64,000 bases of DNA from Rhodobacteraceae bacterium REDSEA-S34_B6 (lineage in GTDB: Bacteria; Pseudomonadota; Alphaproteobacteria; Rhodobacterales; Rhodobacteraceae), in assembly GCA_001627925.1 (NCBI GenBank), contig LUQC01000040.1, forward strand, positions 1 to 64,000, given 5' to 3'. The position numbers and the translations under genes are program-made. Positions 38,321 to 51,204 of the stretch are shown piece by piece (the stretch's first letter is position 1; every line of letters starts with the position of its first letter). The notes below the pieces were generated by a model that was not told the origin of the DNA, made no database searches, and saw only the letters and a program-made list of their open reading frames with translations.

Positions 38321-38617
38321 ATGAGTGAAAAGACGTTAACGCGAATGGATTTAAGTGAATCAGTTTTTCGGGAGGTTGGACTTTCCAGAAACGAGTCAGC
38401 CGATTTAGTAGAAAGCGTGCTCGAGAAAATTAGTGCATCTCTGGTAGCAGGTGAGCAAGTTAAGATTTCTTCATTTGGAACATTTAGTATTCGTCAGAAA
38501 AACGCCAGAGTTGGGCGAAATCCGAAAACAGGCGAAGAAGCGCCTATACCACCTAGAAGAGTTCTTACATTCCGACCTTCTCATTTGATGAAAGATAGGG
38601 TGTCAGAAGGGAAATAA
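38321..38617 (+). CDS. ihfA: Integration host factor subunit alpha
   Basis: A 98-residue DNA-bending protein of the HU/IHF family. It shows the IHF arm [23 protein letters not shown] with the proline that intercalates in DNA, and the N-terminal dimerisation helices. It functions as an alpha/beta heterodimer; the beta subunit gene is not in the window. It is followed 19 bases later by a MerR-family gene. Confidence 0.95.
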
Positions 38618-38636: not shown

Positions 38637-39242
38637 ATGTCAAAATCTGAGAAAGCTTTTCGTAATATAAGTGAAGTTTCAGAGTGGCTAGCTACCCCGA
38701 CTCATGTACTGAGGTTTTGGGAAAGTAAATTTAGTCAAATTAAACCGATTAAACGAGCTGGGGGACGACGTTATTACCGTCCAAAAGACATGCTTATTAT
38801 TGGTGGAATAAAACAGCTACTGCATATTGAAGGACATACCATCAAGGGTGCGAAACAAGTTTTTCGCGAAAAGGGCCTAAATTACGTCATAGGACTATCA
38901 AAACCCTTAATGTCCCAAGATCTCGCGGGAACAGGCAGCGATAAAGAGACCATTACAAAAGTTGTTAAACCTTTTGAAAAAATAAGAAATGCAGATCTTG
39001 TTTCTGTGAAAAGTGAACAACTCAATACTTCAAGCCCAAAAGTCCCAGAACAACCAGGCCTTTTTGACTTTTTTGAGGCAGAAAATCAGAAAATTGATCC
39101 AAAACCCATCGAAAATAAAACGAGTGATGTGTTTTCAACATCAGTTTTATTGAGAGAGATTGAGAATTTAAACAACGACCAGGTAAACAAAATTACACCA
39201 ATAATAAATGATATGAAAAATCTGATTTCATTATGGAAGTAA
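38637..39242 (+). CDS. MerR-family transcriptional regulator
   Basis: A 201-residue protein with an N-terminal winged helix ([45 protein letters not shown]), residues about 10-55, typical of MerR. No metal-binding cysteines follow, so it is not of the metal-sensing type. The C-terminal half is low complexity with a small helical end. The pair ihfA-merR followed by tRNA-Pro is standard in Rhodobacteraceae. Its target is unknown. Confidence 0.9.
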
Positions 39243-39308
39243 AAATAAAGTAAGAAAATTTTTAACTTGTGTATGAGAAAAAAACCAGTAATTAGGGTGT
39301 TAACAAGG

Positions 39309-39334
39309 CGGGCTATGGCGCAGCCTGGTAGCGC
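39309..39334 (+). pseudogene. 5' half of a tRNA-Pro gene, truncated
   Basis: These 26 bases form the start of a proline tRNA: acceptor strand CGGGCTA, then TG, then the D arm GCGC-AGCCTGGTA-GCGC. The anticodon arm, T arm and 3' acceptor strand (which should include TAGCCCG) do not follow. Instead the sequence continues into the coding region of a dCTP deaminase. The anticodon is lost, so the isoacceptor cannot be told. It cannot make a tRNA unless another copy exists elsewhere. Confidence 0.75.
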
Positions 39335-39336
39335 TT

Positions 39337-40368
39337 GGTTCAATTACGTCAGGTGTTCCAATAGACCATGAACAAATACAACCTGCAAGCCTAGATTTGA
39401 GGCTAAGTGGTAAAGCGTTTCGTATAAGAGCATCTTTTTTGCCCGGAAGCCGCGAAAAAGTTGAAGATCGATTAAAATCTTTAAAAATGCATGAAATTGA
39501 TTTAAGAGACGGTGCAGTGCTCGAGAAAGGGTGTGTTTATTTAGTACCGCTACTCGAAGAACTAAATTTATCACAAGATATCCAGGCTGCAGCCAACGCT
39601 AAAAGCTCAACCGGGCGCCTCGATCTATTAACCAGGGTAATTACAAACTCCGGGGAAGAGTTCGATCGCGTTTCCAGTGGATATTGCGGCAACCTATACG
39701 CGGAAATATGCCCCCGCTCTTTTTCGGTATTAGTGCGACAGGGAATGAAACTCAATCAAATTAGATTTAGAAATAAAAATACGACTTTGAATGATGAAGA
39801 CTTAACAGCTCTTCATGCTCAAGAAACATTAGTACCTGGAAACGCCATAATTGATGACGGACTTGGGTTTTCAGTAGATTTAAGACCATCACAAGGTGAC
39901 TTGGTTGGTTACAGAGCAAAACCACACACTGGAATAATTGATCTAGATCTAATTGACTACTACGATCCAGCGGAATTTTGGGATGAGATAAAAACTTCAC
40001 AAGGTGAGATAATTTTAGACCCTGGTGCATTTTATATTTTGGTTAGTCGTGAGAGTGTTCACATACCGCCAGAATACGCTGCGGAAATGGCACCGTATGT
40101 CGCCATGGTTGGCGAATTCAGGGTTCATTACGCCGGCTTTTTTGATCCAGGTTTTGGTCACAATGCAGCAGGCGGATCAGGCGCGCGTGGCGTATTGGAA
40201 GTAAGATGCCATGAAGCCCCATTTGTATTGGAGCATGGTCAAGTTGTAGGACGTTTGATATATGAAAAAATGTCCAATCGACCTACGAAACTATATGGTC
40301 AAGGGGTAAAATCAAATTATCAAGGTCAAGGACTAAAATTATCAAAACACTTCAAGAAAAGTTTCTGA
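39337..40368 (+). CDS. dcd: 2'-deoxycytidine 5'-triphosphate deaminase, 5'-truncated (no start codon)
   Basis: About 343 residues. PIDHEQIQPASLDLRLSG, NAKSSTGRLDLLTR and AGFFDPGFGHNAAGGSGARG are typical of the long alphaproteobacterial dCTP deaminase, which supplies dUMP precursors for dTTP. The frame is open back to a TAA at 39301 but holds no ATG or GTG before LGSITSGVPIDHEQ; the first possible start is an internal TTG at 39397, past conserved residues. About 15-20 N-terminal residues are missing and replaced by a tRNA-Pro fragment. It is probably non-functional unless translated from an unusual start or misassembled. Confidence 0.8.
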   Translation, partial: GSITSGVPIDHEQIQPASLDLRLSGKAFRIRASFLPGSREKVEDRLKSLKMHEIDLRDGAVLEKGCVYLVPLLEELNLSQDIQAAANAKSSTGRLDLLTRVITNSGEEFDRVSSGYCGNLYAEICPRSFSVLVRQGMKLNQIRFRNKNTTLNDEDLTALHAQETLVPGNAIIDDGLGFSVDLRPSQGDLVGYRAKPHTGIIDLDLIDYYDPAEFWDEIKTSQGEIILDPGAFYILVSRESVHIPPEYAAEMAPYVAMVGEFRVHYAGFFDPGFGHNAAGGSGARGVLEVRCHEAPFVLEHGQVVGRLIYEKMSNRPTKLYGQGVKSNYQGQGLKLSKHFKKSF

Positions 40369-50042: not shown

Positions 50043-51204
50043 ATGTTTATCAAATTTTTCGAAAATTTACGACAACATAAGGTGCCAGTGAGTTTAAGGG
50101 AATACCTAACATTTCTGGAGTCCGTGTCACTCGAGCTTTGTACTTACGATGTTGATCACTTTTATTTTCTTGGACGCATAATAATGGTTAAGGACGAAAG
50201 GCATTTAGATAAATTTGATAGAGCTTTTTCAAAAACCTTTGCCGGTATTGAATCTTTATCAATCACAGACCTAATAGAATCTCTGGATGTGCCTGAGGCT
50301 TGGTTGAAAAAACTTACGGAGAGAGTGTTCGAAAAAGAAGAATAAGAAAAAATTGAAGCGCTTGGTAGTCTTGAAAAGCTGATTGAAACTCTAAAGAAAC
50401 GTCTAGAGGAACAAGAAAAACGCCACCAAGGTGGTAGTAAATCCCTTTGGTGCCTATGGATACAATCCTGAAGGCGTCAGGGTTGGTCAGGACCGAAGTA
50501 GGCACCAGCGTGCTGTTAAAGTTTGGGACAAGCGTGAATTTAAAAATTTAGATGACACGATAGAACTTGGTACAAGAAATATTAAAGTAGCAATGAAACG
50601 TCTAAGGCAATGGGTGAGAAATGGTGCTGAGGATGAATTGGATCTTCAAGGTACAATTCGGTCTACTGCTGAGAAAGGTTACTTGGACGTTAAAACGCAA
50701 CCTGAGAGACGTAATGCGGTAAAACTACTTCTTTTTCTAGATGTTGGTGGCTCTATGGATCCATATATCAGATTAGTTGAGGAACTATTTTCGGCGGCTA
50801 GTGCAGAATTTAAAAACCTCGAACACTACTATTTTCACAATTGTCTTTATGAGGGTGTATGGAAAGACAATACCAGGCGTTGGGAAAAGAAGATAGACAC
50901 TTGGGATATTCTAAATACATATGGTTCTGATTATAAATGTATATTTGTAGGTGACGCATCGATGTCTCCGTATGAAATACTGTATCCAGGCGGCGCTAAT
51001 GAATATTGGAATGAAGAGTCTGGTTCAGTTTGGCTAGAGCGTGCACGAACTCAATGGCCATCTAATATCTGGATCAACCCCTTACCCGTTTCTCAGTGGA
51101 AATACACGCAATCAGTAGAAATTATAAAGGAAATATTCCAATCAAGGATGTTCCCCCTAAATTTAAATGGAATAGACCAGGGCATGAAAACACTGCGCTC
51201 ATGA
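50043..51204 (+). pseudogene. VWA-domain (CoxE-like) protein gene, broken by a stop and a frameshift
   Basis: The N-terminal 100 residues (FIKFFENLRQHKVPVSLREYL) end at a TAA (50343-50345) in mid-protein. The same frame continues with EKIEALGSLEKLIETLKKRLEEQ. Near 50430-50445, in a GGTGGTAGTAAAT stretch, the frame shifts, and NPFGAYGYNPEGVRVGQ begins in another frame. That second part holds the VWA domain with FLDVGGSMD (a MIDAS-like motif) and runs to 51204. The intact family protein is about 390 residues. A GTG at 50431 could start the second part but has no ribosome site. Assembly error remains possible. Confidence 0.85.

Follow-up and report, generated by a model that had tools for sequence, protein, structure and literature searches.

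A tRNA-Pro/dcd fusion in a Rhodobacteraceae draft genome is very likely an assembly artefact

In the window, which is the whole stretch of 64,000 nucleotides analysed here, the beginning of a tRNA-Pro gene runs straight into the frame of a dCTP deaminase gene (dcd), and the question is whether the two genes were broken in the organism or in the assembly. Positions 39309-39334 on the forward strand (CGGGCTATGGCGCAGCCTGGTAGCGC) match at 100% nucleotides 1-26 of the tRNA-Pro(GGG) of the closest relative, the metagenome-assembled genome MED-G08 (G006, NTKT01000015.1; locus L032, 1336-1412), and comprise the 5' acceptor strand and the whole D arm. The other 51 nt are missing; the anticodon arm and the T arm are absent, no complete cloverleaf with a GGG anticodon is present at these positions, and neither ARAGORN nor Rfam reports a whole tRNA anywhere in the window. 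From 39335 the sequence matches the dcd of the sister genome, beginning at the second base of codon 16. The initial annotation, made from the sequence itself, had described the acceptor strand and D arm as running into dcd with no anticodon or T arm and no dcd start codon, and both parts of this description were borne out, by the identity over 26 nucleotides and the entry at codon 16, and by sequence reading, ARAGORN, Rfam and the listing of open reading frames.

The alignment breaks bluntly between 39334 and 39335, where 134 bp of the sister contig (G006:C7, 13579-13712) are absent, of which 51 nt belong to the tRNA, 37 nt to the spacer and 46 nt to dcd. Sequence that the relatives possess has thus been lost at a single blunt point between colinear flanks, and since these flanks follow G006:C7 across 58 kb and the break falls exactly at 39334|39335, the junction is not a product of chance. 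It had been proposed that one deletion joined the two genes, possibly at a shared GCGCTT stretch; the single loss of sequence stands, and the shared stretch does not, as 0 bp are in common at the join (in G006, left ...GCGC|GTCC and right ...GAAG|TTGG). The microhomology at both ends that marks a real deletion by short direct repeats was not found.

What remains of dcd (39335-40368, forward strand) is a two-domain dCTP deaminase by its Pfam matches, at 6e-72 to DCD_N and 2e-87 to DCD_C, and the intact dcd of the sister genome is 98% identical to it in amino acids. Its dN/dS against G006 is 0.13, the same as that of plsX (0.13) and near that of fabH (0.17), from which it follows that the body of the gene is not decaying; it is under normal purifying selection, and decay of dcd was rejected as an explanation. 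Missing are the start codon and the first 15 codons, with the conserved N-terminal GVLP segment that G006 and other relatives carry; the comparison with homologues suggested at the outset places the start of the sister gene at an ATG upstream of the break. In several genus relatives (L038, L040, L042 and L044) the aligned ATG is absent and a TTG precedes GVLP, which may be the start codon of dcd in those genomes.

In the window a TAA at 39301-39303 bounds the open dcd frame on its upstream side, and the frame holds no ATG, GTG or TTG upstream of 39397. The first canonical start codon left in it, a TTG at 39397-39399 on the forward strand, comes downstream of the conserved QIQPASLDL segment, within conserved protein sequence, and probably does not serve as a true start. 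Translation from a non-canonical start through the tRNA remnant (for example CTG at 39322) would give a chimeric but working N-terminus in which LVALGSIT replaces LIEVGSIT, and the frame, open back to 39304, and the DCD_N match, which reaches into the tRNA-derived residues, would agree with this. An open run of 10-12 codons is however often expected by chance, the frame has none of the three usual start codons, none of the other genomes searched has the junction, and an artefact makes such a start needless; taken together, this form of expression is scarcely credible.

The sister genome shows what the locus looks like when whole: tRNA-Pro(GGG) is complete and is followed, after a spacer of 37 bp, by dcd from its ATG. 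Over the 58 kb the window runs colinear with G006:C7, with an identity of 95.5-96.8% to the left and right of the break, and the 134-bp loss is the only large gap in this alignment. Elsewhere, at 50441-50443, the window is 23 bp shorter (4 + 19) than G006:C7 in colinear surroundings. Of 394 sampled genomes of the family and 16 genomes of the genus, the remaining 393 and 15 lack the junction; as no other genome searched has it and the relatives carry the intact pair, a shared ancestral deletion was rejected. Among viral contigs no relative of the window dcd was found. In another relative (G012:C23; L051 and L053) both contig ends carry the same 3' half of dcd, in opposite directions, apparently through a fault in that assembly.

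To the left of the break lie an ihfA-type gene of the bacterial DNA-binding protein family (38321-38617, forward strand; Pfam Bac_DNA_binding) and a MerR-family regulator (38637-39242, forward strand; Pfam MerR_1), both in an order kept in the relatives. The order ihfA-merR-tRNA-Pro(GGG)-dcd is intact in nearly all family relatives examined, which makes the intact state the ancestral one and agrees with the earlier view that the left side of the locus is ancestral. The MerR gene has a dN/dS of 0.45 against G006, compared with 0.03-0.17 for its neighbours, a figure that stems from few changes (7 synonymous and 12 non-synonymous).

One way to read these observations is that the lineage did lose 134 bp, and with them tRNA-Pro(GGG) and the dcd start, that tRNA-Pro(UGG) came to read CCC and CCU, and that dUMP was made by another route. 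In its favour, the contig is otherwise colinear with the sister genome, and neither gene has a second copy in a bin that is 95.5% complete. The initial annotation had pointed to other tRNA-Pro genes and to another dcd or a dut-based route as things to look for. No second tRNA-Pro(GGG) was found in the whole bin, a result that rests on DNA searches, since the tRNA family search scores no more than 150 candidates per genome and its tRNA lists are incomplete (as a positive control it recovers the intact tRNA-Pro(GGG) of G006); tRNA-Pro(UGG) is present. A second dcd is likewise lacking in the whole bin, and the dut-based side of the suggestion holds in that a dUTPase is present; both tRNA-Pro(UGG) and dUTPase fit a real deletion. 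The contigs of the assembly that were examined contain none of the 14-mers of the missing 134 bp; this, and the lack of a second copy of either gene, also counts in favour of an artefact.

Against such a deletion stand the purifying selection on the dcd body and the fact that nearly all relatives have kept a tRNA-Pro(GGG) next to dcd. Moreover CmoB, which would widen the decoding of tRNA-Pro(UGG), does not rise above the family cut-off in this assembly or in four relatives, and the weak matches look like general methyltransferases; compensation through a cmo5U-modified tRNA-Pro(UGG) was rejected on this ground. The full biological scenario, in which the deletion is real, the cell lives without tRNA-Pro(GGG) or a CmoB that can be found, CCC and CCU are both left to tRNA-Pro(UGG), and dcd starts at an unusual codon inside the tRNA remnant, is correspondingly hard to credit.

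A further argument against a real deletion comes from the rest of the assembly. Other contigs were aligned to G006, 372 kb being compared in total, with base-level comparison for most events against this one close sister genome. Eight near-blunt losses of 60-143 bp were found, all of them in genes; G006 has none of comparable size and type over the same 372 kb, and the loss type therefore recurs in the assembly under study and not in the one it is compared with. Besides the tRNA-Pro/dcd loss (window contig C47:39334, 134 bp), the G006 alignment gives losses in rnc (C25:40820, 121 bp), metG (C40:27624, 90 bp), a merR gene (C40:46039, 91 bp), recJ (C40:56084, 60 bp), dnaG (C40:67306, an aligned length of 143 bp and an in-frame loss of 48 codons), fdxA at its 3' end (C42:50864, 133 bp) and hrpB (C59:8150, 102 bp). 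The genes metG and dnaG were named by Pfam, and the names of rnc, recJ, hrpB, fdxA and merR come from reading of the translated sequences.

Three of these genes, metG, dnaG and rnc, belong to those expected to be essential, their essentiality in such an organism being general knowledge. The sole metG of the bin gives a broken match, to query residues 1-279 and then to 307-568, compared with unbroken matches of 1-567 or 1-568 in five relatives; about 30 residues of the catalytic domain are gone and the Pfam match to that domain is split. Among the lost residues is the segment QFMGKDNVPF, which can be aligned to solved methionyl-tRNA synthetase structures, and an enzyme without this segment is not expected in a living cell. 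The sole rnc is found as two separate matches (1-161 and 200-228) with a frame shift at the join, and is whole in four relatives. For dnaG the lost residues, about 379-426, lie towards and beyond the end of the region that aligns with solved primases and leave the Pfam domains unaffected, which makes it the weaker case from function. With seven more such losses in one assembly, several of them in genes not expected to be dispensable, an artefact is favoured over real breakage, and a lineage deletion at the tRNA-Pro/dcd locus becomes very unlikely. These seven losses also speak against the earlier proposal of true breakage in a tRNA gene and in an enzyme of dTTP supply, and the misassembly offered beside it as the alternative is the reading that the evidence favours.

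How such joins would arise is suggested by the marked gaps of the same assembly. Its N runs are 1-73 bases long, which indicates that it was scaffolded; a 50-N run at C42:68788-68837 replaces 124 bp of G006 and another 50-N run replaces 10 bp, from which it follows that the gap lengths of this assembly are inexact. A contig from pure short-read de Bruijn assembly cannot invent a blunt junction, and an artefact would therefore need a step of scaffolding, gap closing, merging or amplification. Most probably a scaffolding or gap-closing step with an underestimated gap made the joins, so that N-free joins over true gaps of 60-143 bp would be a natural extension of the inexact gap lengths; at the tRNA-Pro/dcd join the gap would have been closed without Ns and 134 bases, that is the 3' two thirds of the tRNA, the spacer and codons 1-15 of dcd, dropped where two pieces met. 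The mismatch rate near the eight joins does not rise, and error at contig ends adds no support.

A different origin of the junction, chimeric amplification, such as whole-genome amplification can produce, or a minor strain or rare cell whose sequence was taken into the assembly, is highly improbable. Several blunt local deletions without microhomology would suit chimeric template switching, but the varied lengths of the N runs point to scaffolding and the data bear no sign of amplified DNA. An assembly artefact is thus very likely the source of the fusion, which is very probably not a biological feature and as such would be of no biological importance; in the organism's own genome the order is most likely ihfA, merR, tRNA-Pro(GGG), a short spacer and dcd, with both genes whole. 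The wider meaning concerns the assembly, which appears to drop about 60-143 bases, free of Ns, approximately once in every 45 kb of compared sequence and always in a gene. Broken genes, missing tRNAs and gene fusions in it should be compared with the sister genome before they are believed.

Set beside known systems, the dcd of the window shares both conserved domains of the two-domain dCTP deaminases (Pfam DCD_N, PF06559, and DCD_C, PF22569; solved relative 2r9q) and differs from them in that the assembly lacks its start codon and codons 1-15. Compared with the tRNA-Pro(GGG) that the family carries upstream of dcd, the tRNA remnant keeps the identical first 26 nt (against G006) and the same position between merR and dcd, and in the assembly lacks 51 nt. 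Unmarked gaps and mis-joins of scaffolded drafts offer the closest parallel: the present case, deduced from sequence comparison, resembles them in that tens to hundreds of bases are bluntly missing from an otherwise colinear contig, and in that such losses are repeated across the assembly, with N-marked gaps nearby.
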